Assembly: GCA_015520735.1 (NCBI GenBank)
Contig: WAPN01000029.1
Coordinates: forward strand, 1 to 42,497
Direction of reading: 5' to 3'
Source of the DNA: Desulfurococcales archaeon
GTDB lineage: Archaea > Thermoproteota > Thermoprotei_A > Sulfolobales > Desulfurococcaceae
Length of the DNA: 42,497 bases
Shown: positions 7,415 to 37,513 of the stretch, piece by piece
Layout of the letters: every line of letters begins with the position of its first letter
How positions within the stretch are numbered: the first letter of the stretch is position 1
Program-made: the position numbers and the translations under genes
Notes under the pieces: model-generated
Databases searched by the model: none
Seen by the model: only the letters and a program-made list of their open reading frames with translations
What the model was told of the DNA's origin: nothing

Positions 7415-7424
7415 GGCATAGATA

Positions 7425-9682: not shown

Positions 9683-9976
9683 TTGACAGATTTATGGATG
9701 ATGTTTATAATTGTATCTATACCGCTCTACATTGTAGCCTTCATACTCTATGCTATAAGGGGGTTCAGGGGCCCCACTGTATTTGATTCAACAATATCAA
9801 TAGATGCACTTTGCTACGATGTGTCGGCTTTCATGGTTATTTTAAGTGTTTACTTCCGATCATACTTGTTGCTCGGCGCCGGGATACTCCTCGCTTTATG
9901 GGCGTACATCCTTGACGTCGTAATCGCCCGCTACTATGATAGGCTCACACGTATAGGTGATAGTGGGGGAGATTAA
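9683..9976 (+). CDS. mnhF: MnhF/MbhB-like antiporter subunit
   Basis: This 97-residue protein has three predicted membrane helices and the MnhF/MrpF pattern: a short N-terminal helix, the RGFRGPTVFDSTISIDAL loop, then two helices. It is a small subunit of Mrp-type Na+/H+ antiporters and of the related membrane-bound hydrogenases. GGTG at 9672-9675, seven bases before TTG 9683, supports the TTG start; ATG at 9698 or 9701 is the alternative. Its stop overlaps the start of mnhG by one base. It is the first gene of a 17-gene run. Confidence 0.85.
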   Translation: MTDLWMMFIIVSIPLYIVAFILYAIRGFRGPTVFDSTISIDALCYDVSAFMVILSVYFRSYLLLGAGILLALWAYILDVVIARYYDRLTRIGDSGGD

Positions 9977-10335
9977 TGGATCTAGGTGGAATCGTCTTAT
10001 CGATTATCGGTGGAGTAATTATATTTGTTGGAGGACTCTTCGATCTCATAGCGGCTCTAGGTGTCAACAGGTTCCCTGACTTCTACACTAGGTTGCATGC
10101 CATAACAATTGGTACGATCGGCGGGGCGGTCTACCCCATAATAGGCTCGGCGATCCTTGTTTTCGGCGTGCCCGGCTTATCCCTTGGTGTGAGGCTCTCG
10201 TTTGCTCTACCTATGCTAGTCATCGCATCACTAATACTGATTACGGCGCCTACTGGAAGCCACGCAGTCGCCAGAGCTGCATATAGGTCAGGCCTCAAGC
10301 CTTATAGACGTGTCTCCGAGGAGGTGAAGAAATAG
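9976..10335 (+). CDS. mnhG: MnhG/MbhC-like antiporter subunit
   Basis: This 119-residue, three-helix protein has the family hallmark GVNRFPDFYTRLHA near residues 29-42 and LITAPTGSHAVARAA near 86-101. It is a structural subunit of the Mrp cation/proton antiporter module. It is tightly coupled to mnhF (one-base overlap) and followed at once by the next gene. The basic C-terminal tail is probably cytoplasmic. Confidence 0.92.
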   Translation: MDLGGIVLSIIGGVIIFVGGLFDLIAALGVNRFPDFYTRLHAITIGTIGGAVYPIIGSAILVFGVPGLSLGVRLSFALPMLVIASLILITAPTGSHAVARAAYRSGLKPYRRVSEEVKK

Positions 10336-10593
10336 TTGATCCCGGTGCTCCACCTAGTAATGCTCGCAGTTATACTCGGCGTCTCCTTTATAACGATATT
10401 CTTGATGGTGTTCGAGAGGGATCTGCTTAAGATGATTGTTTTGTCGGCTGCGCAGTCTACATTCTATGCGATAGTCCTGTACATATTATTGGTCCCGGAC
10501 GTAGTCCTTGCCTACATCGCCGTCGCAGTCGGAATATATACTGCACTGTTAATGTTCGCAGTCAAAAAGACGGAGAGGTTTGAGGAGGCATGA
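10336..10593 (+). CDS. MbhD-like (DUF4040) antiporter subunit
   Basis: This 85-residue, three-helix protein belongs with MbhD and the DUF4040 domain, equivalent to part of the C-terminal region of MrpA (the MrpA tail/NuoJ-like region). It contains FERDLLKMIVLSAAQS and DVVLAYIAVAVGIYTALL, where the Ala-rich helix after a charged turn is typical. The start is TTG at 10336 with GAGGTG about 10 nt upstream, inside the end of mnhG. Its stop overlaps the next start by four bases. Confidence 0.85.
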   Translation: MIPVLHLVMLAVILGVSFITIFLMVFERDLLKMIVLSAAQSTFYAIVLYILLVPDVVLAYIAVAVGIYTALLMFAVKKTERFEEA

Positions 10594-11375
10594 GGGTAAC
10601 AGGTCTTATTGCGGCTATCTCGATATTGATAGTATTGTTTGCATTGGCGTATGGTCTAGTCGTACTGGGTATTAGCGGTCCGCCCGCCCCCGTCAAACTG
10701 AGGCTATTAGGCGAGAAATACCTGTACTACATGATCAATCCCGCAACGAAATACTTTACCGCGGAATCCCCTGAGGGCGTATCAGCAATACTCTGGGACT
10801 ATCGTGGGCTAGATACGCTTTATGAGACAATGGTTTTATTCGGCGCCATCATAGGTGCGATCCTCGTATATAGGGAGTACCTGTATAGCGAGCCGAGGAA
10901 GACCGGGAAGATCTATGGCTTAAGTCACATTGTAAGGACAGTGTCCAAGATCATTATTTGGCTGACAATTATTATAGCGGTCGCCTTCGGCTTTACGGGG
11001 CAGATAACCCCCGGCGGAGGATTCATTGGAGGCGCTGCATTCGCTGTTGCACCTGTCCTGCTAGTCCTAGTGTATACGCTGGGCTATGCACGCAGGCTAG
11101 GATTAACGCATAGAAGAGCACTTCTCCTTAGAGCAAGTTTTCTCCTACTACTATTACTGGTTATCGTCACGCCTCTAATCGCCGGCGGATACATATTCCA
11201 GAACCAGGCCAAGCCCGGATCGGCTTTCAGCTTCCCCGGTAGATTCATTGACTCAACACCCCTCGGCGGCAGTATATTCTTCTTAAACCTATTCGAGCTT
11301 TTTGCCGTCGCGGGAGCCTTTACGGTGGCCTTTATCCTGCTTGGAGTGATCGCGAGTCTTAAGGAGGGTGAGTAG
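10590..11375 (+). CDS. mnhB: MbhE-MnhB (MbhF) fusion antiporter subunit
   Basis: This 261-residue protein fuses two modules that are separate genes in classical Mbh clusters. Residues 1-100 match MbhE, with DYRGLDTLYETMVLFGAI at about 70-87. Residues ~115-261 match MnhB/MbhF, with the diagnostic TGQITPGGGFIGGA at about 136-149. About six helices are expected. In Mrp complexes these parts link the antiporter-like subunits to each other. ATGA overlap with the previous gene indicates translational coupling. Confidence 0.9.
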   Translation: MRVTGLIAAISILIVLFALAYGLVVLGISGPPAPVKLRLLGEKYLYYMINPATKYFTAESPEGVSAILWDYRGLDTLYETMVLFGAIIGAILVYREYLYSEPRKTGKIYGLSHIVRTVSKIIIWLTIIIAVAFGFTGQITPGGGFIGGAAFAVAPVLLVLVYTLGYARRLGLTHRRALLLRASFLLLLLLVIVTPLIAGGYIFQNQAKPGSAFSFPGRFIDSTPLGGSIFFLNLFELFAVAGAFTVAFILLGVIASLKEGE

Positions 11376-11792
11376 ATGATGGGTATAGGCGAGGTTTTCT
11401 GGCTATACATATGGCTCATAATTATGGCTAATATGGGCTTGGCCATATATGGTTTGATCATGAGGCCCAATATACTGAAGAAGATCGCTTGCCTGACGGT
11501 TCTAGCTGACACTAGCTTCATAGTCTTAGCGTTCATCGGGTACAGGTTCAAGTATCCTGTATCGCCATATATAATGACTAACTGGGCCCCTAATAATGCA
11601 ACCATCACGCACTTCATTAGTGAAAGCGTCGATCCTCTCCCCCCAACACTTACCATAACCGCTGTTGTAATAAATCTATCAATAACAATACTCCTTGTAT
11701 TCCTGGCCATAAGACTGTATGAGGTATACGGTACGCTGGACGTCAAGAAAATAGCTATGATCAAGAAGGAGCTCAGGGGTGGGGAAAAATGA
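11376..11792 (+). CDS. mnhC: MnhC/MbhG (NuoK-like) antiporter subunit
   Basis: This 138-residue, three-helix protein is related to NuoK. The C-terminal helix pattern LPPTLTITAVVINLSITILL (about 87-106) is the MnhC signature that lines the ion path. A longer loop between helices 2 and 3 makes it somewhat larger than bacterial MnhC (about 115 residues). The gene lies directly after mnhB with no spacer and overlaps mnhE by four bases. Confidence 0.9.
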   Translation: MMGIGEVFWLYIWLIIMANMGLAIYGLIMRPNILKKIACLTVLADTSFIVLAFIGYRFKYPVSPYIMTNWAPNNATITHFISESVDPLPPTLTITAVVINLSITILLVFLAIRLYEVYGTLDVKKIAMIKKELRGGEK

Positions 11793-12289
11793 GGGCAAGA
11801 TATATAGCTGTATGGCTTGCAGGAATCTTCATCTACTTCCTAATAGTCGCAAGGATAACGTTGTTCGACCTAGTCGTAGCACCAATAATATCCATGGTCG
11901 CGGCTTTGATCATGGGCGGCGAAGTGGTTAAGAAACCCTACAAAGCATTCTCCCCGAAGAGATGGCTGTACGGACTAGCGTACATGTTGTACTACTTGCT
12001 CATTGTCGAGCCGACCTGCCACCTACGAGTAGCCTCAATGGTGTTGGGGCTCAGGGATTACAGGCCTGACATAGTTGAGGTTTCATTCGACTATAGAACA
12101 GACTACGCAATAGCCGCTACAGCTAACTCTATAACCAATACGCCGGGAACCATAGTAGTAGACATCGATCCTAGGAACAAGAAATACTACGTGCACTGGC
12201 TTGAAGCCTATACGCGTGATCCCCGTGTAGCTAGGGAGAAGATAATCTCGGTTTTTGATAAGTGGATCAAGAGGATCTTCGAGGATTGA
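11789..12289 (+). CDS. mnhE: MnhE/MbhA-like antiporter subunit
   Basis: This 166-residue protein has two or three N-terminal helices and a soluble C-terminal domain. The family pattern is visible in NSITNTPGTIVVDIDP (about 117-132) followed by YYVHWLEA. It is the non-NuoL-type subunit E of Mrp antiporters. The start overlaps mnhC and its stop shares bases with the start of mnhD (TGATG), so translation is coupled throughout. Confidence 0.92.
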   Translation: MRARYIAVWLAGIFIYFLIVARITLFDLVVAPIISMVAALIMGGEVVKKPYKAFSPKRWLYGLAYMLYYLLIVEPTCHLRVASMVLGLRDYRPDIVEVSFDYRTDYAIAATANSITNTPGTIVVDIDPRNKKYYVHWLEAYTRDPRVAREKIISVFDKWIKRIFED

Positions 12290-13866
12290 TGGAGATGGAG
12301 TCCTTCATACCCGTACTCACGCCGATCATCAGCTTGGTCGGAGCAATACTGTTGGCTCTGTTCAGCGTAACCTTAAAGTCTAGAAGGGTAGTTGACACAT
12401 TATTCCTGGCTACAACTGTAGTCACAGCGGTAATGACAGGATACGTAGCGTACACTGTCTTCCGGTTTAACGAGACCCTAGTATATGGGTCTGGAGGATG
12501 GCTTCCACCACTAGGGATAGTCTATATCGTGGATAAGCTGTCAGCAACTATGGCCCTACTGTCATCGCTGATAATCCTGTTAATAGCGGTTTACTCGATC
12601 GGGTACTTCGGAGGCAAAGAGCATGGGATCCACTATCTCTACGTACTGATATTACTTATGTCGTCAGCGCTTATCGGCATATACTATACAGGTGATCTAT
12701 TCAACTTCTTCGTCATGATAGAACTAATGGCCGTAACCGCCTACGCTCTCGTGGGCTACCATAAGAGCAAAGGAGAAGCTGTCGAGGCAGCACTAAAGTA
12801 TGGCATGATAGCTTGTCTGGCAGGGATACTGCTGTTTCTAGGAATAGGCTTCATATACGCTTACATAGGCACGTTGAGCATACCTGATTTGTCAGCGAAG
12901 ATTCTCGGCTTACCGACACCGATGAACATGTTCAGCGGCAACACGGCGGTCGAGGCTGCACCCCTGCTCCTCATAGTCGGTCTAATAGTCTGGTCCCTGA
13001 TGCTGGAATCGGCTGCTTTCCCGCTCCACTTCTGGCTCCCAGACGCACACTCTGAGGCCCCCTCACCTGTATCCGCACTATTATCCGGCCTTGTTGTGAA
13101 CGCTGGACTGTACGGGCTGATAAGGCTGTTCTACACGGTATTGTCCGAGGGAAGAAACGCCGTCAGCGGGTTATCAGTCATACTCGATATCCTGATAGTC
13201 CTGGGATGCCTCGGCGCATTATATGCATCGGTAATGATGCTTATAGAGAGCGATATAAAGAGGATCATTGCTTACAGCACGGTGATGCACGTATCCCTCA
13301 TCATTATCGGTATAAGTATTGGGACGAAGTACGCCCTGGCTGCCTCGATATATCATTTCATAACACATTCCATATCCAAGGCCTTAGCGTTCCTATCCGT
13401 CGGAGTATTAGTTTCAGCTGCAGGCACGAGGAACATCAGGGATTTAAAAGGATTTGCTAAGCTCTATCCAGGGGCCTCGGCAGGCATGATCATCGCTATG
13501 CTAGGGCTTGCCGGCGTACCTCCTCTGGGTACGTTCCCGAGCAAATTGTTATTGATAGCCGCGTCAGTGGGCGCTGGCAACATAGGCGCCGCGCTAATAA
13601 TAATCATTACAAGCGCTATAGCGGCCATCGGGTATTTCAGAATAATAAACCTCCTCGTCAACGAGGCCCCCGTCAAGGCGGGCATGTTTAGAGCAGGGCG
13701 GACAATCAAGGCGTCAATAACGATACTATGCATCCTAGTAGTACTTGTAGGCTTAGCCCTTCCACTCCTCTCGCAGCTCTCAACCAGTATCTCAGGACAA
13801 CTATTCAATCCCACAAACTATATAGGATCCGTGAAAGGCATCATAGAGCGCTTCCTCGGCCACTAG
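12289..13866 (+). CDS. mnhD: MnhD-like (NuoN/NuoM family) ion-translocating subunit
   Basis: This proton-conducting antiporter-like protein of about 525 residues has roughly 14 helices. It keeps the key elements of the family: Glu in FVMIELMAVTAYALVGY, and HFWLPDAHSEAPSPVSALLSG around the broken helix. I choose ATG 12289 (MEMESFIPV), which overlaps the mnhE stop, over an earlier in-frame GTG at 12262. It closes the Mrp-type half of the operon. A gap of about 115 nt with its own TATA-like box follows. Confidence 0.92.
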   Translation: MEMESFIPVLTPIISLVGAILLALFSVTLKSRRVVDTLFLATTVVTAVMTGYVAYTVFRFNETLVYGSGGWLPPLGIVYIVDKLSATMALLSSLIILLIAVYSIGYFGGKEHGIHYLYVLILLMSSALIGIYYTGDLFNFFVMIELMAVTAYALVGYHKSKGEAVEAALKYGMIACLAGILLFLGIGFIYAYIGTLSIPDLSAKILGLPTPMNMFSGNTAVEAAPLLLIVGLIVWSLMLESAAFPLHFWLPDAHSEAPSPVSALLSGLVVNAGLYGLIRLFYTVLSEGRNAVSGLSVILDILIVLGCLGALYASVMMLIESDIKRIIAYSTVMHVSLIIIGISIGTKYALAASIYHFITHSISKALAFLSVGVLVSAAGTRNIRDLKGFAKLYPGASAGMIIAMLGLAGVPPLGTFPSKLLLIAASVGAGNIGAALIIIITSAIAAIGYFRIINLLVNEAPVKAGMFRAGRTIKASITILCILVVLVGLALPLLSQLSTSISGQLFNPTNYIGSVKGIIERFLGH

Positions 13867-13914
13867 CCGTTTTCACAGATCAGGAAACCGCTCCTACAAA
13901 CATGGAATCACGGG

Positions 13915-13930
13915 TTCTTTAATTTAAACC
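13915..13930 (+). promoter_or_regulatory. Probable internal promoter before the CooF-like gene
   Basis: TTCTTTAATTTAAACC is TATA-like and lies about 60 nt before TTG 13984, in the only sizeable gap (117 nt) of the operon. It could let the CooFS-hydrogenase half be transcribed independently of the Mrp half. Inference. Confidence 0.35.
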
Positions 13931-13983
13931 ACTCAATAAGGGCATAACGAGCACAGCATCGCTTGATCCAAGGTGCTGTTGGT

Positions 13984-14604
13984 TTGGCCGTATCTGATAA
14001 ACCGATGGTCTACATAGATCCTACGAGATGCGTGGGATGCCGATCCTGCGAGATAGCCTGTGCAGTAGAACATTCACAAAGCAAGCACCTTTTCTTCGCC
14101 ATCAAGGAGTATCCGAGGCCAAAGGCTAGGATAAGGGTTGTGTACCTATGGGATCTAGGCCTCCCCTCACCCCTGAACTGCCGCCACTGCGAACAAGCAC
14201 CGTGTATAGAGGTCTGCCCGACAAGGGCTTTGGAGAGAGATCAAGATGATGCCGTTGTGCTTAATCCCTTGAAGTGTATCGGTTGCCTCACCTGCGGTGT
14301 TGCATGTCCATTCGGCGTGCCAGAACTCGATGTTTTCAACAAGATAATGGTGAAGTGCGATCTCTGCCCTGATAGGAGAGCGGAGGGTCTCCCACCTGCG
14401 TGTGTCGAGGCCTGCCCAACCGGGGCTCTGATGTACGGTACCGTAGGTGAAGTTATGAGGAGGCGTAAAGAGCTGGTAATGAGGAAAGTCTATGAGTCCA
14501 GGAAGGAAGGCGTCAGATCCTATATGATCTTTTCGCCAGAGGCTAAAACACCTCTTCACATCCTCGCAGAGAAGACCCGTACATCTAGATGGTTTGAGTG
14601 GTGA
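13984..14604 (+). CDS. cooF: CooF/HycB-like polyferredoxin electron-transfer subunit
   Basis: This protein of about 206 residues has four Cys groups, each able to hold a [4Fe-4S] cluster: CVGCRSCEIAC, CRHCEQAPCIEVC, CIGCLTCGVAC, and CDLCP with a later CVEAC. This is the CooF/HycB/DmsB arrangement, an electron relay between a catalytic subunit and a membrane partner. The start is set at TTG 13984 because AGGTG (13971-13975) stands eight bases upstream; TTG 13963 is the alternative. It overlaps the following CooS-like gene by four bases (GTGA), so the two are almost certainly made and assembled together. Confidence 0.88.
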   Translation: MAVSDKPMVYIDPTRCVGCRSCEIACAVEHSQSKHLFFAIKEYPRPKARIRVVYLWDLGLPSPLNCRHCEQAPCIEVCPTRALERDQDDAVVLNPLKCIGCLTCGVACPFGVPELDVFNKIMVKCDLCPDRRAEGLPPACVEACPTGALMYGTVGEVMRRRKELVMRKVYESRKEGVRSYMIFSPEAKTPLHILAEKTRTSRWFEW

Positions 14605-16451
14605 TCCCGGGCTTGACCGAGAAGGCGTATATTGGTTTAAAAATTAAGGGGTACGTCTCAATTACCCCAGACGTAAATGAGCTCGTTAAGAAGGCGGATC
14701 TAGAAGGCGTTGATACCGTCTGGCATAGGTTCCAGTATCAGCAACCCCAATGCGGGTTCGGACTTACCGGTGTATGCTGTAGGCACTGTAACACCGGACC
14801 ATGCAGGGTAGATCCTTTCGGTTATGGTTTCCCGACTGGTACGTGTGGAGCCAGCCCGGATCTCATAGCTTCAAGGGATTTACTTGATCTAGTGGTTCAT
14901 GGGGCCACGACGAGGTTGCAGGAAGCACTGATTATGATAAATACCGCCAAGGCCGTGGCGGAAGGGAGAACGAAAGACTATGGTCTAAAGAACCCGGAGA
15001 GACTCCACGAGCTAGCGGACACACTAGGGCTGAAGGCCGAAAAAGACCTTGATCTTCTTAAGTCCCTAGCTGAAACGCTTGAGACAGAGATCCATAGGCT
15101 TACGGATGAGCCACTGCTAACAGCTGTTAAGCTTGTACCGGAAGAAATTGTAGAGATATGGGAGAAAAACGATCTACTGCCCAAGGGATTTTCAAGAGAA
15201 CTTATGGATGCAAACTATAGGTCAAACATGGGAACAGACTCTGATCCAATCAGTGTAGTGAAGCAGGCTATTAGGATATCAATACTCGACGGCCTCCTAG
15301 CCACGTTCACAACGACGATTATGGATGAGATCCTGCTCGGCGATAAGGCGCCCGGAAAAGGCCGTAGCGGGCTTGGAGTCATTAGTCCCGATAACGTCAA
15401 TATATTCATTAGGGTCATGCCTGTCTTTGCTGGCAAGATAAAGATGGCGGCACAGGATCCAAAGCTTTTAGAAATGGCGAGAAAAGCGGGAGCAAAGGGC
15501 ATATCCGTCATTATTCCAAGCGGCAACATGATCATGCAGGAACTACCGATTATAACAGGGCTTACCGAGGTAATGGTCGTTGATCACCAGTGCATATATC
15601 CCCACATAGTCGAAATCGCGAGGAAATACCATACAAAGATCGTTATTGTCGACCCAGTGGCTAAGCTGCCAGGAGCCATACATATGCCAATGACACCCGA
15701 GAACGCTTCAAGAGTTGCCAAAGAGATAGTTAGGCTCGCGGTCAAGAACTATGTCAATAGGAAACCCGAGAAGATCTATAGGCCCACTCACATCTCGGAG
15801 TTCACTACCAACCCGACTCTAAACGGGCTAAAGAAAGCATTCGGGGGGTCCTTCAAGCCCATAGCCGACGCGATAAGGGACGGTAGTATAAAAGGAGTAG
15901 TGGTAATGCATCACTGTACTAACCCGAAGGTTAAGCACAACTATGGCCACTACACTATCGCTAAGAAATTGATCGAGAACGACGTGCTGGTATTGACTAT
16001 GGGGTGTTCAATGATGGCGGCCGCGTTGACAGGCCTTGCAAAGCCGGATTCAATTAAGCTTGCAGGCAACGGGCTCATGAGGCTTCTAGCGGCCTTCAAC
16101 CTACCGCCAGTAATACCGCTAGGACCATGCGTTGAAACCACAAGGGAGCTACTCATACTATACGAGATAAGCAAGGAGCTAGGCACACCATTCAATAAGG
16201 CCCCATTCGCAGCGAGCGCGCCGGAGTGGATGAACGGCAAAGCACTAAGCGCGGTGCTTTACTACATGGCGCATGGTTTGCTCAGCCATGTCGGGACAGT
16301 ACCGCAGATCCTAGCGGCACCGGGTGTGGAGAAGTTCCTAACGGAGGAAATGGAGAAGATCACGGGAGGAAAGCTAGTCATTGAGCCAGATCCAGACGCT
16401 GCCGCGGATATAATCCTAAAGCACCTCGAGAAGAGAAGCCTTACCCCATAA
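14601..16451 (+). CDS. cooS: CooS-like (Ni-CO dehydrogenase family) protein with incomplete C-cluster
   Basis: This ~616-residue protein is homologous to the anaerobic Ni-CODH catalytic subunit. The N-terminal Cys set for the D- and B-clusters is intact (C52, C60, C61, C64, C69, C83, numbered from GTG 14598). Of the C-cluster ligands, the equivalents of Cys333 (VVDHQCIYP), Cys446 (HHCTNP), Cys476 (LTMGCSM) and Cys526 (LGPCVET) are present, as is the active-site Lys (SAPEWMNGKA). The HGHEP His (His261) is replaced in IRVMPVFAG. The segment that carries Cys295 in classical CooS (GICCTGNE) reads VIIPSGN and is about 17 residues shorter. The His-rich proton path after the B-cluster is also absent. 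No cooC follows. CO oxidation is therefore doubtful. The protein may act on another substrate or serve as an electron scaffold. Confidence 0.88.
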   Translation: MIPGLTEKAYIGLKIKGYVSITPDVNELVKKADLEGVDTVWHRFQYQQPQCGFGLTGVCCRHCNTGPCRVDPFGYGFPTGTCGASPDLIASRDLLDLVVHGATTRLQEALIMINTAKAVAEGRTKDYGLKNPERLHELADTLGLKAEKDLDLLKSLAETLETEIHRLTDEPLLTAVKLVPEEIVEIWEKNDLLPKGFSRELMDANYRSNMGTDSDPISVVKQAIRISILDGLLATFTTTIMDEILLGDKAPGKGRSGLGVISPDNVNIFIRVMPVFAGKIKMAAQDPKLLEMARKAGAKGISVIIPSGNMIMQELPIITGLTEVMVVDHQCIYPHIVEIARKYHTKIVIVDPVAKLPGAIHMPMTPENASRVAKEIVRLAVKNYVNRKPEKIYRPTHISEFTTNPTLNGLKKAFGGSFKPIADAIRDGSIKGVVVMHHCTNPKVKHNYGHYTIAKKLIENDVLVLTMGCSMMAAALTGLAKPDSIKLAGNGLMRLLAAFNLPPVIPLGPCVETTRELLILYEISKELGTPFNKAPFAASAPEWMNGKALSAVLYYMAHGLLSHVGTVPQILAAPGVEKFLTEEMEKITGGKLVIEPDPDAAADIILKHLEKRSLTP

Positions 16452-16491
16452 TCTTTTTTCTAAATCCATAGCAGACAGCGAGGAGCAGATC

Positions 16492-17937: not shown

Positions 17938-17940
17938 AAT

Positions 17941-19302
17941 ATGGTTCAGCCGCCCTACATAGCGCTGTTGCTGTTGATCGTTTACCCATTATTGGTCATC
18001 ACATCGATCCTAGCTGATGCCTCGAAGAAAAAGCTGATCGGGCTTATATCGACGACCACGTACTCTCTGCTAAGCATTATACTAGTCTTGGCCATAGTTA
18101 TTGGAGGAATACCCGCTAGAATAAAACTGCCATTAGGGATCGGCATCTACGTGGATACTTTTTCCTTAGTATACGTGATGACATCATCCATCATAGTATT
18201 GGCAGCAGGCATTTACATGTATGTAAGATATAGTGGTGTAAGTGATGAGAGATTCGCAAAGTACGGTATCCTATCCCTCCTACTATATGTTACATCACTG
18301 CTCGTACTGACTGACAACTGGCTGGTCTTCGCAATCCTATGGGAGATCATTAGTTTTATAGCCTATTACATGATTCTATCAACATCCAGGGATACCGGCC
18401 CCCACTACACATATTATCTAACAATGCATACAACCGGTTTCATGATACTGGTAGGTGCCGCTCTCCTATACGCCGACAACGCCTGTAATATGACGAGAGG
18501 TATTGGTGAAAGCCTTGTTGTCCCAGCACTATTGCTCGCCACCGGGTTCATGAGCAAAGCCGGCATCTTTCCGTTCCATTATTGGGTTCAACAAGTATAT
18601 GATAACATAGACCCCCTTTACTCGGCACTTTTCTCGGGCATAGTCGACCCGCTGGGGATATACGGCCTATACAGGCTTGCCTCGGCCTCGAGCTTACCCG
18701 AGAACTACGTGTGGCTACTGATCTCCCTATCCCTAATCTCGATGACAATCTCTGTCATATGGTATTGGGGTGCCAGGAGACTTTCCTCGATGCTTGCATG
18801 GTCGACTATATATAATATGTCCTGGATGATGCTCGCTCTGACACTTCCAGGTGCGGGAGCACTAGCGCTTATCCTACCACTATATATTATGTGCCACGGC
18901 CTCTCCAAGGCATCGGCGTTCATGACGATGGGCATATATGGGGACGATTACTGCCGCATCAGGAAGCTCTACCCGCATGCCGGGTTCTTGCTCGCCGCAT
19001 CCATACTCGCGATCGAAGGTGCTCCACCGTTCAATCTATTCATAGCCAAGATAATGATACTTAAGAATGCGATTGCCTCGCTGGGCGTGGTTGCCGCGAT
19101 ACCTATTATCGGATGGTTTATTAGCAGCCTCTTTTTCTTCAGGATAATGGCTTCAATATTGTTTCCGAGGAGCAACATATCTGAGGAAAGCATAGGCTCC
19201 TCTCTGAGCTTCTTAGATGCATTGATCGCCTTGATGCTCGTGCTCAATGTCTTCTCCTACTGGATAATATCCTGTATCGCAGGGGGAGGTGCGATCATTT
19301 GA
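17941..19302 (+). CDS. Divergent NuoN/NuoM-like membrane subunit
   Basis: This 453-residue protein has ~13-14 helices. The Glu region is kept (FAILWEIISFIAYYM) and so is the Lys of the broken helix (SKAGIFPFHYW). After that the usual LPDAH stretch reads VQQVYDNIDPLY, and the next helix has VDPLGIYGLYRL where active pumps carry a Lys. It therefore looks like an antiporter-like subunit with a partly lost ion path, perhaps structural. It begins three bases after the previous stop and overlaps the next gene by four bases. Confidence 0.82.
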   Translation: MVQPPYIALLLLIVYPLLVITSILADASKKKLIGLISTTTYSLLSIILVLAIVIGGIPARIKLPLGIGIYVDTFSLVYVMTSSIIVLAAGIYMYVRYSGVSDERFAKYGILSLLLYVTSLLVLTDNWLVFAILWEIISFIAYYMILSTSRDTGPHYTYYLTMHTTGFMILVGAALLYADNACNMTRGIGESLVVPALLLATGFMSKAGIFPFHYWVQQVYDNIDPLYSALFSGIVDPLGIYGLYRLASASSLPENYVWLLISLSLISMTISVIWYWGARRLSSMLAWSTIYNMSWMMLALTLPGAGALALILPLYIMCHGLSKASAFMTMGIYGDDYCRIRKLYPHAGFLLAASILAIEGAPPFNLFIAKIMILKNAIASLGVVAAIPIIGWFISSLFFFRIMASILFPRSNISEESIGSSLSFLDALIALMLVLNVFSYWIISCIAGGGAII

Positions 19303-21338
19303 TCATGTATCTCGTCGGCACCCTATTCGGCGCTATGGTGTCAGCCTATATCCTGGCCATACTGTCTTCTCTCGTGCTTAGAAGCAACTACACATTATCG
19401 ATCAGGGCTGGGCTTTCATTTGTATTTATCGCATCACTATCCCAGCTAATATTGTCATCCATTATCGTGGTCACGGGGATCAGCGCTTGTCTCTATGGCT
19501 ATTTCTGCATAGATAGTTTCTCGGCCTTATTCCTAATAGTGATAGGGCTAGCAGGCCTATCGATAAGCCTCTACGGGATGGAGTACATGAAGATCTACAG
19601 GGGGCTAGGCGGGGCATGGACGTATTCCCTAATGGTTTCACTATTCCTTTTCTCAATGGCAATGCTGTGTATATCCAATAATTTACTCTTATTCGTGTTT
19701 TTCTGGGAGATAATGACCTTGACGAGCATTATACTGATAGGATGGGAGTACGGGAAAGAATATGTTGCCAGGGCAACCAAGCAGTATCTCTACACGATGC
19801 TACTACTGAACAGTTTCCCCCTGATACTCGGAGTCTCTATGCTATGGGCTAGCTACGGGACTCTGCAACTTAGCTCCTTAGAGAAAATGATTGATACCCA
19901 CAACCTCGCATGGTTGCTGTCAATAGTTATGCTCTACATCGCCTTCACGGCCAAAGCCGGTCTATATCCACTCCACTTTTGGCTCCCGGATGCACACCCA
20001 GCAGCGCCAAGTAATATATCATCCCTTCTCAGCGGTGTAATGATAAAGATGGGTGCCTATGGGTTATTCGGCGTGATGCTGAGGTATCTGCATCCCCCTA
20101 TAATTCTTTATTATTTGTTGCTTATCCAGGCGTTGTTGTCGATCTTCTGGGGCTCGATCAAGGCGATAAGCGAGGATCACGCCAAGAGGCTTCTAGCCTA
20201 CTCGAGCGTCTCCCAAATAGGCTATATAATGGTTCCCCTGAGCCTCTCAGCGATTTCATTGGGTTTTAACAAGGCACTTTCAGCGCTTTTGCTCGCAGCC
20301 GGATTGGCTTATCTATTCGCTCACAGTATTTTTAAGACCCTCCTGTTCCTGACGAGTGGCTGCTACATATATGTTTACGGATCAGCCGATCTGGACAACG
20401 TGGCCAATATTGGCATGGTGAGCAAGACCGCCATGATCAGTATCATAATAGGTTCTCTAAGCCTCGCCGGGCTACCGCCCCTGCTCGGCTATATCGCTAA
20501 GCTGTCGATATACGCTTCGATCCTAAGGGGAGCCTCCCCACTGTACAGTATCATCGCAGCAATAGTGATAGCGCTGTCTCCGCTGACACTACTGTATTCT
20601 GTCAAATATATGGCTCCAGCGCTCAGGCTTGTAGAGAAAAAAATGATAAGGGAAAAGATAGGGTACCCAATGACTGCTGGAATGCTGATACCTGTTGTAT
20701 CGCTTGTATTGTTCGGCCTATACTCGATCTTCGGCTTATTCACGGATATATCCTGGCGTTACTACAGCCCCGTAACTAGTACTGCCCCAATAGAGGCCGG
20801 GCTGATCCATGTTATTTCCCCCTACGGCTACTACCTACCATTAATAGTTTCCGCCTCGATCGCTCTAGGTTTACTGCTAGGATACATCGATAGGGGCAGA
20901 GACGTTGTCACCAGTAGAATATGGACGACCGGATACATTATTCCGCCCAACAAGCACCTTTTAAGGCCCAGCTACCTATACATAGAATTCTCAAAGCTCT
21001 TTAAGCCGGCCATGGGATTTTCGCACGAGGTCTACGAGTGCCTTGTATGGAGGATACCATCGAAAATCGTTTACTCCGGCATAGCCTCAAGGATAACCCG
21101 GTTTTTCGGCGGTCTAAACGGCTGGTTCGCCACCAAGGCACGGGGGCTCGCTGAAAAATATTCGAGAATAAAGGAGTTCAAGCTGGACGAGCTCGCCGGA
21201 TCCTCGGTCTTGGCGGCAGTAAGGATGTTCGGCAATATGGCTAGGCTGATCATAGTCTCCCCGATAGCCCTGTTTACCACAGCTTTGCTTATACTCTCGA
21301 TAATAGTCCTCATAATACTCTTGTTCTGGTGGGTGTAG
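19299..21338 (+). CDS. hycC: HycC/HyfB-type proton-pumping membrane subunit
   Basis: This large antiporter-like subunit (679 residues) keeps a full set of pump residues: FVFFWEIMTLTSIILIGWEYG, AKAGLYPLHFWLPDAHPAAPSN and SSLLSGVMIKMGAYGLFGVM. After the ~14-helix core comes a C-terminal extension (about 540-679) with an amphipathic stretch and a terminal membrane helix (LFTTALLILSIIVLIILLFWW). This resembles the lateral arm of NuoL and HycC/HyfB. It lies directly before the NuoH-like gene, as in formate hydrogenlyase and CO-dependent hydrogenase clusters. Confidence 0.88.
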   Translation: MIMYLVGTLFGAMVSAYILAILSSLVLRSNYTLSIRAGLSFVFIASLSQLILSSIIVVTGISACLYGYFCIDSFSALFLIVIGLAGLSISLYGMEYMKIYRGLGGAWTYSLMVSLFLFSMAMLCISNNLLLFVFFWEIMTLTSIILIGWEYGKEYVARATKQYLYTMLLLNSFPLILGVSMLWASYGTLQLSSLEKMIDTHNLAWLLSIVMLYIAFTAKAGLYPLHFWLPDAHPAAPSNISSLLSGVMIKMGAYGLFGVMLRYLHPPIILYYLLLIQALLSIFWGSIKAISEDHAKRLLAYSSVSQIGYIMVPLSLSAISLGFNKALSALLLAAGLAYLFAHSIFKTLLFLTSGCYIYVYGSADLDNVANIGMVSKTAMISIIIGSLSLAGLPPLLGYIAKLSIYASILRGASPLYSIIAAIVIALSPLTLLYSVKYMAPALRLVEKKMIREKIGYPMTAGMLIPVVSLVLFGLYSIFGLFTDISWRYYSPVTSTAPIEAGLIHVISPYGYYLPLIVSASIALGLLLGYIDRGRDVVTSRIWTTGYIIPPNKHLLRPSYLYIEFSKLFKPAMGFSHEVYECLVWRIPSKIVYSGIASRITRFFGGLNGWFATKARGLAEKYSRIKEFKLDELAGSSVLAAVRMFGNMARLIIVSPIALFTTALLILSIIVLIILLFWWV

Positions 21339-21342
21339 AGCC

Positions 21343-22293
21343 GTGAACGAGTGCCTGCTCGAAATGATCTGGGTAATCGTCCTAATACTGCTCGGGGCTT
21401 TTATAGCCCCGATCCTTGATGGGCTGAGACGCAAGATCAGGGCCAAGATCCAGAGGAGGATCGGGCCGCCGTTGCTGCAGACCTTCTATGATTTATCGAA
21501 GCTCTTCAACCTACAGCCCGTGCTACCCTTCAAGAACATGTTCATAGTCGTGTCACCCTATATTGCATTCGCAACACTGCTGGTATTATCGGCGGCAGTG
21601 CCATTGCCTTATGTTCCAGGGTTCAGCACAGTGTTTGATGCCATCACGCTCCTGTATACATTGTTGTTTGTATCCGTGCTCGTTGTTCTTCTCGGGCTAG
21701 CATTGCCGAATCCCTACTCAAACGCTGGATCGACCAGGGAGGCACTGACTATAACGGTGTTCGAGGTTTTCATCGCCTTCACGATCGTCGGTATTGCGTA
21801 TAGTATGAAGACGCTGAACCTCTACGGCCTCGCGGTGCTGTACGGCTTCCCCAAGAACTATCTGAGGATAAGCACTCTTTTCCTATCAGCATCGCTCTTC
21901 ATACTAGCATATATCGAATCCGCCTACACACCATTCGATATGGGCGAAGCGGAAACAGAGGTGCTGGGAGGACCATACCTAGAGTTCAGCGGGAGATACT
22001 ATGGGTTATTCCTCTACGCCCTGCTCCTTAAGAGATACATACTCCTATCACTCCCAGTATCCCTGGTCCTCGTATCCCCTATAGCAATGATGCTTAGAGC
22101 CTTTATCCCAGAACCACTGCTATCAGTGGTTGTCCTTGGTGTTTTTGTCCTATTCCTGTTCATTACAATGAGCGTCTACTCTGTGGTAGAGGCGCTCTAC
22201 CCTAGATACAGAGTTGACTTGGCGTTTAAGCCTCTGATCCTTGCGTCCGTGATACCATTTATCGGGCTTGTCATGGGGTGGCTTGGTTGGTAG
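21343..22293 (+). CDS. hycD: NuoH/HycD/MbhM-like membrane anchor of hydrogenase
   Basis: This 316-residue protein with ~8 helices is the NuoH-type subunit that docks the soluble hydrogenase arm on the membrane. Family features are GLRRKIRAKIQRRIGPPLLQTFYDLSKLF near residues 28-55, and FDMGEAETEVLGGPYLEFSGRYYG near 203-226, the acidic loop lining the coupling chamber. The start is GTG at 21343, four bases after the preceding stop. It overlaps the next gene's possible upstream start. Confidence 0.93.
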   Translation: MNECLLEMIWVIVLILLGAFIAPILDGLRRKIRAKIQRRIGPPLLQTFYDLSKLFNLQPVLPFKNMFIVVSPYIAFATLLVLSAAVPLPYVPGFSTVFDAITLLYTLLFVSVLVVLLGLALPNPYSNAGSTREALTITVFEVFIAFTIVGIAYSMKTLNLYGLAVLYGFPKNYLRISTLFLSASLFILAYIESAYTPFDMGEAETEVLGGPYLEFSGRYYGLFLYALLLKRYILLSLPVSLVLVSPIAMMLRAFIPEPLLSVVVLGVFVLFLFITMSVYSVVEALYPRYRVDLAFKPLILASVIPFIGLVMGWLGW

Positions 22294-22301
22294 AGTTCTG
22301 G

Positions 22302-24005
22302 ATGAGGAGCATCGAGGATCTGGGAAGAGAAGAAGTGATGAGTATTGTCGATAAGGAGCTCCACGGCCTATACACCGAAAAGTACGCTCCTACAAGAGAT
22401 CTCATAATCTACTTCGCTCCGAGGGAGAATATAAGGGAGATAATAAGGCGGCTGATGATGTTCTCCTACACGAGGCTGAGCGTAATTGTGGGGAATGACG
22501 AGAGGTACTTTAGGCGCGACTTTTCCCTGACATACATAGTATCGTTCGATAAGCAGGATCTCTACATAGGCGTTAGAACGTATTTACCGGAATACGACTT
22601 AGAGATCGCGAGCATAGCAGACATGGTTAAGGCCGCCTGGTGGAATGAGAGGGAGAACAGAGATCTCTACGGCATAGAGTTTATCGGGCTGAAAGATAAG
22701 CGCAAGCTCGTGTTACCTGAGTACTGGCCCGACGACGCGCATCCGTGGAGAAAAGACTACCCCTACAATAAGCCTGTGATGGACTGGAGAGAAGGGCTCC
22801 CAGACTATAAGCCTGTCGGGCGCCACGAGGACCTTGACGTGATAGGTTTGGGGCCTTACCATATGATCAACGACGAGCCTATACATTGGAGACTATATGT
22901 GAAGGGAGAAACAATAGTTGATGCGGAACACAGGGGATTCCATAACTGGAGGGGTATCGAGAAAATAGCGGAGGGGAGGCTAACATATAACCAGATCCCC
23001 TTTATAGCTGAGAGGATATGCGGGATATGCGGGTTTACCCACGCGACATCCTACGTACAGGCTGTGGAGTCTCTAGCTGGCATAGATATCCCTGATCGGG
23101 CGAGATATATCAGGAGCCTCATGCTGGAGATCGAGAGGATCGAGAGCCATCTCCTATGGATCGGGATTGCCTGCCACATACTCGGCTTCGACACAGGCTT
23201 CATGCTTTCGTGGAAGATCCGCGAACACATAATGCACTTGGCAGAGGTGCTAACGGGTAACAGGAAAACATACGGAATGGATATTGTAGGCGGCGTTCGG
23301 AGGGATGTGCTGGGAGATAGGCTGGGCAAGGCAAGGGACTCAGTGAAGAAGATCAGGTACGAGTACAGGGAGCTCTACAACATGCTGATAAACAACTCGA
23401 TACTTGTCAAGAGGACGCGTGGCGTGGGAGTCCTTCCGAGGAATAAGGCTATAAGCTACGGAGTTGTAGGGCCCGTCGCAAGGGCTACCGGGCTAGACAT
23501 AGATGTTAGGAGAGATCATTCCTATGCAGCTTACAAGGAGCTCAGCTTCGATGTACCCGTCTATAGTGAGGGTGACGTCCTAGCTATTACCCTAGTGCGT
23601 CTAGACGAGGTGTTCGAATCCCTCGACCTGATCGAGCAGATCCTAGACGCTCTCCCGGGAGGCCCGCTAGCAGTGGATGTGAAGGATATCCCAGAGAACA
23701 AGGAGGCTGTAGGTGTAGTGGAGGCTCCCAGGGGCGAGGACATACACTATGTTAGGAGCGGCCTGTACAATAAGATCCAGAGATGGAGGGTTAGGGCTCC
23801 CAGCTACGCCAATATACCGCCGGTCAAGGAAATGCTTATCGGGTACAGGCTCGCCGATGCGCCAATAATATATGCATCGGTCGACCCCTGCCTAGCATGT
23901 ACGGAGAGATACCTAGTGATAGATGTCGATACGGGCTCGAAGAAGATCATGACAGACGACGAGCTGAGGGCCAAGTCCAGAAAACTATCCACCAGAATAG
24001 GGTGA
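22302..24005 (+). CDS. hycE: Group 4 [NiFe]-hydrogenase large subunit, NuoC-NuoD fusion (HycE type)
   Basis: This ~567-residue protein has a NuoC domain (about 1-165, ending in WWNERENRDLYGIEF) fused to the NuoD-type catalytic subunit. Both metal-binding pairs are intact: RICGICGFTH (C248, C251, numbered from GTG 22278) and DPCLACTER (C538, C541). This marks a functional Ni-Fe site rather than a complex I quinone site. About 37 residues follow DPCxxC, so there may be little or no maturation cleavage. Start choice is uncertain among GTG 22278, TTG 22287 and ATG 22302; I prefer the ATG. No hydrogenase maturation gene lies in the window, so those must be elsewhere. Confidence 0.92.
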   Translation: MRSIEDLGREEVMSIVDKELHGLYTEKYAPTRDLIIYFAPRENIREIIRRLMMFSYTRLSVIVGNDERYFRRDFSLTYIVSFDKQDLYIGVRTYLPEYDLEIASIADMVKAAWWNERENRDLYGIEFIGLKDKRKLVLPEYWPDDAHPWRKDYPYNKPVMDWREGLPDYKPVGRHEDLDVIGLGPYHMINDEPIHWRLYVKGETIVDAEHRGFHNWRGIEKIAEGRLTYNQIPFIAERICGICGFTHATSYVQAVESLAGIDIPDRARYIRSLMLEIERIESHLLWIGIACHILGFDTGFMLSWKIREHIMHLAEVLTGNRKTYGMDIVGGVRRDVLGDRLGKARDSVKKIRYEYRELYNMLINNSILVKRTRGVGVLPRNKAISYGVVGPVARATGLDIDVRRDHSYAAYKELSFDVPVYSEGDVLAITLVRLDEVFESLDLIEQILDALPGGPLAVDVKDIPENKEAVGVVEAPRGEDIHYVRSGLYNKIQRWRVRAPSYANIPPVKEMLIGYRLADAPIIYASVDPCLACTERYLVIDVDTGSKKIMTDDELRAKSRKLSTRIG

Positions 24006-24011
24006 GTGGCC

Positions 24012-24566
24012 ATGGCAAAGTACTTTGAGAAAACCGACAAATGGGTCGTCACTTTCAAGTACCCACTGGAACCCCTCGAGCCTCCAAGAGAACTGAGGGG
24101 AAAGCCAGAGATAAACCCTGACCTGTGCATCGGGTGCGGTGCATGCGCAGAGGCATGCCCTCCAAACGCCATAACGAAGGAGATTGATTACCGGGAAGGA
24201 TACGCGAAGATAAAGATCTTCTATGGAAGATGCATCTACTGTGGCAGGTGCTGGGAGGTCTGCCCAGAAGGAGCTATAGTTCTCACCAATATTTTCGAGA
24301 TGGCCACGCCGTCGAAGGACGATCTGATCTACGAGGTCAACCTAGAGCTCCACACATGCTCCCGATGTGGCAGGTATACGGAGTTCACTGAGAGACAGGT
24401 TCACAGAGCATACACTCTTCTCACAGGGATACCAAGGGAGAGGAGAAAAGAGCTTCTAGACAGGATGTTCCTCTGCCGGGACTGTAGAAGACAGGTTTTC
24501 TCGCACGACGCACTACGTAATAGGAGGACTGATAAATATGGGAGGGCGTCCCAGACCCCGTTTTAG
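24012..24566 (+). CDS. hycF: NuoI/HycF/MbhN-like 2[4Fe-4S] ferredoxin subunit
   Basis: This ~184-residue protein has two ferredoxin motifs, CIGCGACAEACP (about 41-52) and CIYCGRCWEVCP (about 76-87). A C-terminal CSRC/CRDC quartet (about 118-160) can bind a metal, as in HycF/MbhN. It relays electrons between the CooF-like protein or ferredoxin and the small subunit. ATG 24012 is chosen over GTG 24006 because GGTGAG sits six bases before it. It overlaps the next gene by 29 bases. Confidence 0.92.
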   Translation: MAKYFEKTDKWVVTFKYPLEPLEPPRELRGKPEINPDLCIGCGACAEACPPNAITKEIDYREGYAKIKIFYGRCIYCGRCWEVCPEGAIVLTNIFEMATPSKDDLIYEVNLELHTCSRCGRYTEFTERQVHRAYTLLTGIPRERRKELLDRMFLCRDCRRQVFSHDALRNRRTDKYGRASQTPF

Positions 24567-25263
24567 GAGCGTATGGGTATTCCACGTAGATGCCAGCGCC
24601 TGCAATGGATGTGATATAGAGGTGCTCGACGTCCTGACGCCATTCTATGACGTCGAGAGGTTCGGTGTAAAGCTTGTGCCAACGCCGAGGCAAGCAGATG
24701 CACTACTTGTCAGCGGCTCGGTGAACAGGCAGGCCGTGATAGGTCTTAAGAGAGTATACGAGGCGATGCCGCCCAAACCAAGAATAGTGGCCGCTGTGGG
24801 GGCATGTGCTATCGCTGGGGGGATCTTCTACGACAGCCTAGCAGTGTACGGCGGTGTAGACAAGATAATCCCCGTACACATATACATACCCGGTTGCCCG
24901 CCTAGACCCGAAGCAATACTGTTCGGCCTCGGCCAGCTGCTGGGCCTCGTAAATAAGAAGATCGAGCCGAGAATACTGTATCCGGGAAGACGCGTCCTAG
25001 ACCGCAAGTATGGCGTGCTCTTCAATGAGAGGCTCTATAAGGATCTGAGATATTATCTTACAAGGTATGTGGGCTATTATGATCGCGACTATATACTAGA
25101 TGATCTCCTTGAAATAATAAACAGTTCAAGGACGGTTGAGGAGCTTAGGGAGAAGATCATGGATAAGGCTTCGAGGCTTAAAGACCCGCGGCTAAGAGAA
25201 GTCTATAGCATAGCCGGCGGATACATAGTTGAGAAAATCAGGGAGGAGACAGGGGCTGTATAG
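24538..25263 (+). CDS. hycG: Group 4 [NiFe]-hydrogenase small subunit (NuoB/HycG/MbhJ)
   Basis: This 241-residue protein has the four Cys of the proximal [4Fe-4S] cluster: ACNGCDIE (C22, C25), VGACA (C90) and IPGCPPRPEA (C120). It passes electrons to the NiFe centre in the NuoD-type partner. The C-terminal ~90 residues (from about 150) extend beyond the minimal NuoB fold, are helical and charged, and are of unknown role. The gene is the last recognisable subunit of the operon. Confidence 0.93.
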   Translation: MGGRPRPRFRSVWVFHVDASACNGCDIEVLDVLTPFYDVERFGVKLVPTPRQADALLVSGSVNRQAVIGLKRVYEAMPPKPRIVAAVGACAIAGGIFYDSLAVYGGVDKIIPVHIYIPGCPPRPEAILFGLGQLLGLVNKKIEPRILYPGRRVLDRKYGVLFNERLYKDLRYYLTRYVGYYDRDYILDDLLEIINSSRTVEELREKIMDKASRLKDPRLREVYSIAGGYIVEKIREETGAV

Positions 25264-25570
25264 GGTAAGCATAGAGTACAGGTATAAGAGACACAAGCTA
25301 TCAGCCGAGACCAGGCATTACGAGGTACTATTCGGTGTCATTGAAACTATCGGAGAATATGACGACAAGACAATCTATGATGCAATCAATAAATGTATAA
25401 ACGAGAAATATAGGAAGAATCTTCTAGACAGCATAAGGCTTGGGAAGAATGTCAGGATATACATTAGCGGCGAGGATCTAGGGAAGATATTGGCTGTGCT
25501 AGACCGGGAGGACTGGAAGCCTGTGCCCCGGGAATATGACTACGTTCTTGTACTGGAACATCTAGATTGA
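25229..25570 (+). CDS. Small hypothetical protein at the end of the hydrogenase operon
   Basis: This protein of up to 113 residues is unrecognised: soluble, no Cys pairs, with alternating strands and helices (IYISGEDLGKILAVLDRE near the C-terminus). It overlaps the end of the small-subunit gene, and its stop overlaps that of the convergent regulator at 25562 by nine bases. The start is uncertain. TTG 25229 opens the frame, but the best Shine-Dalgarno sequence (GGGAGGAG, 25241-25248) stands seven bases before a CTG at 25256. A role in assembly or maturation, analogous in position to HycH, is a guess from context. Confidence 0.6.
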   Translation: MRKSGRRQGLYRVSIEYRYKRHKLSAETRHYEVLFGVIETIGEYDDKTIYDAINKCINEKYRKNLLDSIRLGKNVRIYISGEDLGKILAVLDREDWKPVPREYDYVLVLEHLD

Positions 25571-37511: not shown

Positions 37512-37513
37512 CC

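Follow-up and report, generated by a model that had tools for sequence, protein, structure and literature searches.

In the carbon monoxide dehydrogenases (CODHs), the pendant iron of the C-cluster, Fe1, is held by two protein ligands, His261 and Cys295. The numbering is that of CODH-II, taken from a PDB alignment and counted on the 656-residue chain, such that His261 is the second histidine of HGH and Cys295 the second cysteine of CCTG; Cys333, Cys526, Lys563, and His93 are numbered likewise. Cys295 is also described as an Fe1 ligand in PMC9311411, where CODH-II carrying C295A or C295E was Ni-deficient and incapable of CO oxidation. In CooS-V from Carboxydothermus hydrogenoformans, Cys295 is replaced by a glutamate, five of the six C-cluster ligands including the histidine are kept, and the protein holds an Fe/S/O cluster with slow NH2OH (hydroxylamine) reductase activity and no detected CO activity (PMC9311411). 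Among 24 structural groups of CODHs, just the Cdh-type groups A-4 and A-6 are without both ligands, and in the same survey of 1942 CODHs [NiFe] hydrogenase neighbors occurred only with groups E-1, F-1, and F-2, whose motifs are complete, an association taken by its authors as a requirement for coupling (Inoue 2019, PMC6344411). Described here is CooSx, a CooS-like protein that has neither Fe1 ligand and that is encoded, together with an Mrp module and a group 4 [NiFe] hydrogenase, in a 17-gene run of a Desulfurococcales archaeon. The stretch of DNA analyzed, hereafter the window, is 42,497 nucleotides long and corresponds to contig C29 (WAPN01000029.1) of a 1.53-Mb metagenome-assembled genome (MAG), the near relatives of which are labelled Desulfurococcales. 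The losses, the residues kept, conservation, selection, gene order, and hydrogenase ancestry were all read from sequence.

The positions within CooSx that bear on its metal clusters are these:
14598-16451, + strand: CooSx, CooS-like protein (PF03063, 4e-110; TIGR01702, 498 bits; alignments)
14751-14846, + strand: D- and B-cluster cysteines of CooSx (residues 52, 60; 61, 64, 69, 83), all kept (alignment)
14913-14915, + strand: Arg106 at the position of the acid-base His93 (alignment)
15411-15422, + strand: RV(M/L)P replacing HGHNP, one residue deleted and His261 gone (alignments)
15507-15518, + strand: site of an in-frame 15-residue deletion, (A)GMCCTGNEVLMRLG, with Cys295 removed (alignments)
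15591-16130, + strand: C-site residues Cys332, 440, 470, and 511, kept (CODH-II Cys333, 446, 476, and 526; alignments)

His261 and Cys295 are missing in all four window-type genomes. The original prediction had spoken of an altered CooS, and the alteration is in fact much greater than was supposed. That a methionine takes over the ligand role of His261 was ruled out, as leucine occupies this position in the related MAG JAMOPC. The four C-site cysteines are aligned and invariant, the cysteines of the D-cluster (Cys39 and Cys47 in CODH) and of the B-cluster are retained, and of the acid-base pair Lys563 is kept while His93 is an arginine. Because His261, Cys295, and His93 have been lost, a normal [Ni-4Fe-4S] C-cluster with a Ni-Fe1 site would not be buildable, and since both of the parts that hold Fe1 are gone, CooSx probably acts on something other than CO. 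CooSx is probably a descendant of a Thermococcus-type CO dehydrogenase. Taken as a whole, the locus probably specifies a modular, energy-converting hydrogenase that belongs to the Hyf/formate hydrogenlyase (FHL) type and is joined to Mrp, and in which a CooF-CooSx pair replaces FdhA and CooSx has been repurposed, with a four-cysteine cluster, for a small-molecule substrate that is not CO.

Comparisons were made among MAGs, with the phylum sampled at about 400 genomes and a named genome collection scanned once with exact peptides. A synteny search in relatives, as had been proposed, found the order kept in three related MAGs, split in one (JAMOPC) and partial in another (JALWBS). In JALVYU010000031 (G001) the gene order is kept with protein identities to the window of 82-97%, or 70% for x113, the last gene of the run. 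In JAMOPC (G033) the run is split over two contigs, with identities of 80-82% for CooSx, 83% for the hydrogenase large subunit, and 38% for the third antiporter-like protein. In JALWBS010000113 (G132/L040) the segment that starts with cooF and ends with x113 is kept, as is the convergent regulator, and the contig stops just before cooF; CooSx is 63% identical and the large subunit 72%, versus 32-56% for the antiporter-like proteins. The same run of genes in these three genomes indicates that the arrangement did not arise by chance. Overall, CooSx from the three other window-type genomes is 63-94% identical to that of the window. The ratio of nonsynonymous to synonymous rates (omega) could be estimated for the window/G001 pair alone, as synonymous divergence is saturated versus G033 and JALWBS; the values are 0.033 for CooSx, 0.044 for HyfG, 0.029 for HyfI, 0.138 for the third antiporter-like protein, and 0.132 for x113. 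CooSx is under strong purifying selection, on a par with the hydrogenase subunits, and, given 0.033 versus 0.132-0.138 for the third antiporter-like protein and x113, its gene ranks with the most strongly constrained ones in the run. Both an assembly artefact and a pseudogene were ruled out as explanations for the losses, on the basis of an identical in-frame loss in four genomes and the omega of 0.033 for the window/G001 pair.

CooSx scores 498 bits against TIGR01702, the cut-off of which is 478. This score, the CooF partner, the retention of Lys563 and the four cysteines, and a tree position inside the CODHs of CO-dependent hydrogenase clusters would all suit an enzyme that is still a CO dehydrogenase-hydrogenase (CO + H2O -> CO2 + H2) with a remodelled C-cluster. 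That CooSx works in this manner is nonetheless quite unlikely, given the absence of both Fe1 ligands and His93, the inactivity of the C295A and C295E variants (PMC9311411), and the finding that [NiFe] hydrogenases are accompanied by complete-motif CODHs alone (PMC6344411); in addition, an intact CODH is encoded elsewhere in the genome, and the locus has no cooC. CooS-V demonstrates that a CODH scaffold one ligand short can become a slow NH2OH reductase with an Fe/S/O cluster (PMC9311411), and a reductase of hydroxylamine or NO that resembles the hybrid cluster proteins (HCPs) and is driven by H2, as thought for CooS-V, might be imagined here too. This seems very improbable: CooS-V keeps five of six ligands with a glutamate only at position 295, whereas CooSx has no histidine at 261 and no residue at all at 295. 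On these residues, CooSx is outside the sequence definitions of a working CODH, of CooS-V, and of HCP. Clade D CODHs, like CooS-V, share with CooSx a CODH scaffold with a changed set of C-cluster ligands; CooSx differs from CooS-V in the loss of the whole Cys295 loop and in its linkage to a hydrogenase. Groups A-4 and A-6 resemble CooSx in being without the histidine and the first cysteine ligand, but they are archaeal Cdh-type proteins (acetyl-CoA synthase alpha) with substitutions, whereas CooSx belongs to the CooS type and has a deleted loop.

The surroundings of the C-site are likewise conserved. R272, P275, N310, M313, and E315 are invariant both in the window type (group A) and in a second type of altered CooS (group B, below), and His330 and His438 are conserved in the window type. 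Such conservation exceeds what would be needed if CooSx were a catalytically silent scaffold or electron relay, with a plain 4Fe-4S cluster at the C-site, wiring another donor such as ferredoxin to CooF and the hydrogenase. A relay would be in keeping with the four cysteines suited to a cubane when the other active-site ligands are gone, and with the retained B, D, and CooF clusters; a 617-residue dimer would be costly for the purpose, however, when ferredoxin feeds Mbh directly. We regard a silent relay as unlikely.

All 17 open reading frames (ORFs) of the run are read from the + strand (9683-25570); most overlap their neighbors or are separated from them by a few bases. Families were assigned with Pfam and NCBIfam profile searches, which together with the ORF list bore out the inventory and coordinates of the original prediction. 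Pfam matches in the run include MrpF, PhaG/MrpG, MbhD, MnhB, NuoK/MrpC, MnhE, and four Proton_antipo_M domains, followed by Fe-S protein, Prismane/CODH, NADHdh, Complex1_30kDa with 49kDa, Fer4, and Oxidored_q6. Apart from CooF and CooSx, the genes encode an Mbh-type Mrp set (seven genes), three Hyf-type antiporter-like proteins, HyfC, HyfG, HyfH, HyfI, and a 113-residue protein. With CooSx listed above, the remaining features are:
9683-9976, + strand: mrpF-like gene (PF04066)
9976-10335, + strand: mrpG-like gene (PF03334)
10336-10593, + strand: mbhD-like gene (PF13244)
10590-11375, + strand: fused mbhE-mnhB gene (PF04039 over residues 114-245)
11376-11792, + strand: mrpC, NuoK-like (PF00420)
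11789-12289, + strand: mrpE (PF01899)
12262-13866, + strand: mrpD, antiporter-like subunit 1 (PF00361; Lys to Glu in transmembrane segment 7, LESAAFP)
13867-13962, no strand: intergenic gap with a TTTAATTTAAA box, possible second promoter or regulator site (box kept in three genomes)
13963-14604, + strand: cooF-like polyferredoxin (Fer4_11 and other Fer4; 52-54% to CooF from canonical CODH clusters)
16492-17937, + strand: antiporter-like subunit 2, HyfD-like (NF005097, hydrogenase 4 subunit D, 1e-109)
17941-19302, + strand: antiporter-like subunit 3, fast-evolving (PF00361; 32-38% in G033 and L040)
19299-21338, + strand: antiporter-like subunit 4, HyfB-like (NF005086, hydrogenase 4 subunit B)
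21343-22293, + strand: HyfC/MbhM-like membrane anchor, NuoH family (PF00146)
22278-24005, + strand: HyfG-like fusion of the 30-kDa and [NiFe] large (49-kDa) subunits (PF00329, PF00346, PF00374; RICGIC, DPCLAC)
24006-24566, + strand: HyfH-like subunit with two [4Fe-4S] clusters (Fer4)
24538-25263, + strand: HyfI-like small subunit (PF01058; four Cys)
25229-25570, + strand: x113, 113-residue protein (70% in G001, 33-36% in L040)
25562-26695, - strand: convergent regulator with a LysR-type helix-turn-helix (HTH), probable partner regulator (weak kinship to the regulator preceding the intact CODH cluster)

The marks of a group 4 [NiFe] hydrogenase are all in place: the NiFe-site cysteine pairs RICGIC and DPCLAC of the large subunit, the four cluster cysteines of HyfI, a NuoH-like anchor, and antiporter-like subunits. 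The proposed combination of Mrp, a CooFS-like pair, and such a hydrogenase is borne out by the families found and is conserved as a unit in relatives. No molybdopterin gene, and so no formate dehydrogenase subunit of that kind, was found among the 17 genes in the Pfam searches, and x113 matched no family in Pfam or NCBIfam.

The Mrp module contains MrpB-G, MbhD, and MbhE, the last recognized by position and by the length of the fused gene rather than by a family match of its own. What had been called a full Mrp set is complete as an Mbh-type set and is without an MrpA/NuoL-like subunit. The four ion-pump-like subunits foreseen are likewise real as NuoL/M/N-type genes, starting at 12262, 16492, 17941, and 19299. 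All four proteins have the glutamate of transmembrane segment 5 (TM5) in the alignment, and three have the TM7 lysine; in MrpD a glutamate replaces this pumping lysine in the window, G001, and G033, versus a lysine in the MrpDs of contigs C3, C20, and C30 of the same genome. Given this replacement, the presence of four genes does not imply four equivalent pumps.

The closest relatives of the hydrogenase are linked to formate dehydrogenase (Fdh). In the HyfG trees, the window type groups with the cluster of G008/L133, a complete genome, with a Shimodaira-Hasegawa-like approximate likelihood ratio test (SH-aLRT) support of 98; in a second tree it joins L133-L135 at 100/100. The Fdh-linked Hyf/FHL clusters, including those of G008/L133 and Pyrococcus abyssi, the T. 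onnurineus FHL, and Mrp-Mbh-Fdh, belong to the same hydrogenase lineage (100/100 with L133-L135), whereas the CODH-linked hydrogenases, that of contig C3 included, are placed elsewhere in the large-subunit trees. The order in G008 is molybdopterin oxidoreductase, CooF-like protein, HyfD, antiporter, HyfB, HyfC, HyfG, HyfH, and HyfI; from the CooF-like protein onward, the window has the same hydrogenase genes in the same order. Three of the four window antiporter-like genes are the Hyf-type ones already in this relative, the fourth being MrpD. With a hydrogenase sister to the FHL-type lineage, CooSx would stand in the place of FdhA in an FHL-like machine. The window differs from the Fdh-linked clusters in its input enzyme, CooSx rather than FdhA or SudA, in the Mrp set upstream, and in its total of four antiporter-like genes; no Mrp genes were found in the 20 kb read around the G008 cluster. 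Exchange of an input module, fdhA for a sudA-like gene, is documented within the Desulfurococcaceae (PMC3035292). Escherichia coli hydrogenase-4 (Hyf) supplies, in HyfD and HyfB, the best NCBIfam matches of two of the window antiporter-like genes. E. coli Hyf is not known to have an Mrp set or a CooF-CooS pair. In many relatives, the HyfG matches contain in-frame stops, of all three stop codons and almost all in the 36-41% class; these are probably separate MbhK and MbhL genes read through.

The kinship to the Thermococcus CODH cluster that had been proposed belongs instead to contig C3. There, genes for a V4R protein, a LysR-type HTH protein, CooF, an intact CooS, a CooC-like ATPase, one HyfB-like protein, HyfC, HyfG, HyfH, HyfI, and an Mrp set are found. 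The T. onnurineus CODH-hydrogenase-Mrp cluster (TON_1017-1031, PMC4731540), which has been introduced into Pyrococcus furiosus, and its C3 homologue share with the window CooF, a CooS-like protein, a group 4 hydrogenase, and an Mbh-type Mrp set; in the window the CooS ligands are lost, cooC is absent from the locus, the hydrogenase lineage and the gene order are different, and there are two more antiporter-like genes than in the C3 cluster. The absence of cooC from the 17 genes does not set the locus apart as had been thought, as the CooC-like ATPase gene beside the intact cooFS on C3 would make CooC available in the cell. With this intact cluster in the same genome, a second CO oxidase would be unnecessary. 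The MbhE-MnhB fusion is no distinguishing mark either: fused homologues of 265-365 residues occur in all four other Mrp clusters, on C3, C20, C5, and C30. Contig C20 carries a C3-like cluster preceded by genes for a pyridine-nucleotide-disulphide oxidoreductase and for a CooF-like protein, a layout that matches the sudA-linked complexes of Thermosphaera and relatives (PMC3035292); C5 and C30 carry Mbh/Mbs-type clusters. The window LysR-type HTH protein (25562-26695, - strand) is 27% identical to the HTH protein at L023:1352-3127, which is encoded, along with a V4R-domain protein, ahead of the intact CODH cluster. This pair is presumably akin to a CorQ/CorR-like pair, the R-like half alone being kept beside the window cluster.

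Altered CooS proteins were found in other archaea as well. Group B (CooS') was encountered in five genomes of one genus, g172, from another class of Thermoproteota, with both losses read directly in four; His93 is a tyrosine and Lys563 a glutamate, and the NiFe cysteines are kept in the partner hydrogenase. The loci read are compact (cooF, CooS', HyfG, HyfH, and HyfI) with no adjoining membrane genes, the exceptions being L085, with cooF on the opposite strand, and L086, which ends after HyfG. A nitroreductase-family gene follows the hydrogenase genes in two of these genomes (L083:9643-10335 and L084:114-806) and may hint at a redox partner. The g172 genome G434 also encodes another very divergent CooS-like protein of 610 residues (L088:6840-8672, - strand) with TGHQ and a cysteine-containing loop. 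Group C, G165, belongs to the window's order but another family; in its shorter CooS' (547 residues) the strand with His261 and the loop with Cys295 are missing and the four cysteines are kept, and the protein is encoded in a Hyf-like cluster (L170:12216-17611, - strand) with its own HyfD/B/E/F-like membrane genes. Because the G165 cluster has both, the pairing of an altered CooS with several antiporter-like subunits is not confined to the window type.

In the CooS trees, groups A and B are joined at 95/98, and A, B, and C at an SH-aLRT of 98. In the A and B tree, their position is near Thermococcus AM4 CODH-1 (6t7j) and further CODHs encoded in hydrogenase clusters, and each group built singly falls in the same neighborhood. 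The three partner hydrogenases are not sisters: that of G165 is closest to its own CODH-linked hydrogenase and that of the window to FHL. Inheritance of hydrogenase and CooSx as one unit across the groups was ruled out by these HyfG trees, in which the placement of group B is unsure. The occurrence of the same altered CooS with different hydrogenases argues for a role connected with hydrogen or protons, and against decay.

If the locus is a repurposed FHL-like machine, Cys333, Cys446, Cys476, and Cys526 would hold a closed cubane, either 4Fe-4S or Ni-3Fe-4S, and this four-cysteine site would exchange electrons with a small molecule other than CO. Electrons would pass between the C-site, the B- and D-clusters, and CooF, and then by way of HyfH, HyfI, and HyfG to the [NiFe] site, with ions pumped by the HyfB/D-type and Mrp membrane subunits. 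We infer the cluster type, the substrate, the direction of electron flow, the ion coupling, and the co-assembly of Mrp, CooFS, and hydrogenase into one supercomplex. Several points weigh against such a machine. With a 4Fe-4S cluster bound entirely by cysteines, no site would be open, and this would speak against catalysis unless Cys526 carried Ni or a labile Fe. The AlphaFold model of CooSx (four sequences), with a predicted local distance difference test score of 51 and a predicted template modelling score of 0.42, was not used for the C-site geometry. The G008 cluster would be of the formate-hydrogenlyase type on an FdhA identified by molybdopterin domains alone. The loop losses could reflect convergence instead of a common origin; long branches join the clades, and for this reason the joining of A, B, and C may be partly an artefact. 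Finally, the AT-rich TTTAATTTAAA box, conserved in three genomes in the gap before cooF, may start a second transcript, so that Mrp and hydrogenase genes could be expressed apart.

This gap of about 96 bp (13867-13962), the widest within the run, lies at the mrpD/cooF junction. Together with the Mrp-free 20 kb around the G008 cluster, it raises the question of whether the Mrp genes and the CooF-CooSx-hydrogenase genes specify two adjacent, separate machines, an arrangement compatible with all of the other readings. This is improbable in our opinion, as the Mrp genes keep this position in G001 and G033, and in every other cluster of this genome Mrp and hydrogenase genes lie side by side.

Elsewhere in the window, two large proteins of 331 and 639 residues are encoded directly 5' of the Mrp genes (6419-9344, + strand). 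Neither has a Pfam match at E 0.01 or better; both have signal-peptide-like hydrophobic N-termini, and the larger also a hydrophobic C-terminal tail. Part of a type I CRISPR-Cas operon (DevR/Csa2, Cas5-like, a Cas3-like helicase, and neighbors) lies at 33791-38536 (- strand), and consecutive ORFs of 263, 385, and 599 residues in G001 (L028:470-4190) have the sizes of these CRISPR-Cas ORFs.

In part the system is ordinary, a modular group 4 hydrogenase with a swapped input, and in part it is new, namely a CooS-type protein without both Fe1 ligands serving as that input and recurring with different hydrogenases. Tentatively, such proteins may represent a third enzyme type that uses the CODH/prismane scaffold, neither CODH nor HCP, with a four-cysteine cluster devoid of the pendant iron as the active site for turnover of some small molecule, and repeatedly plugged into group 4 hydrogenases of the Thermoproteota with or without ion-pumping modules. 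CooSx of the window type is a conserved and selected exception to the complete-motif rule of PMC6344411, with altered proteins beside three hydrogenase lineages. Because the TIGR01702 cut-off is passed, databases will name CooSx a CODH, and the second CooS of these organisms would be wrongly counted as capacity for CO oxidation. If CooSx uses another substrate, hyperthermophilic archaea would have an energy metabolism that has gone unrecognized, and the protein would amount to a natural experiment on the role of the CODH pendant iron.

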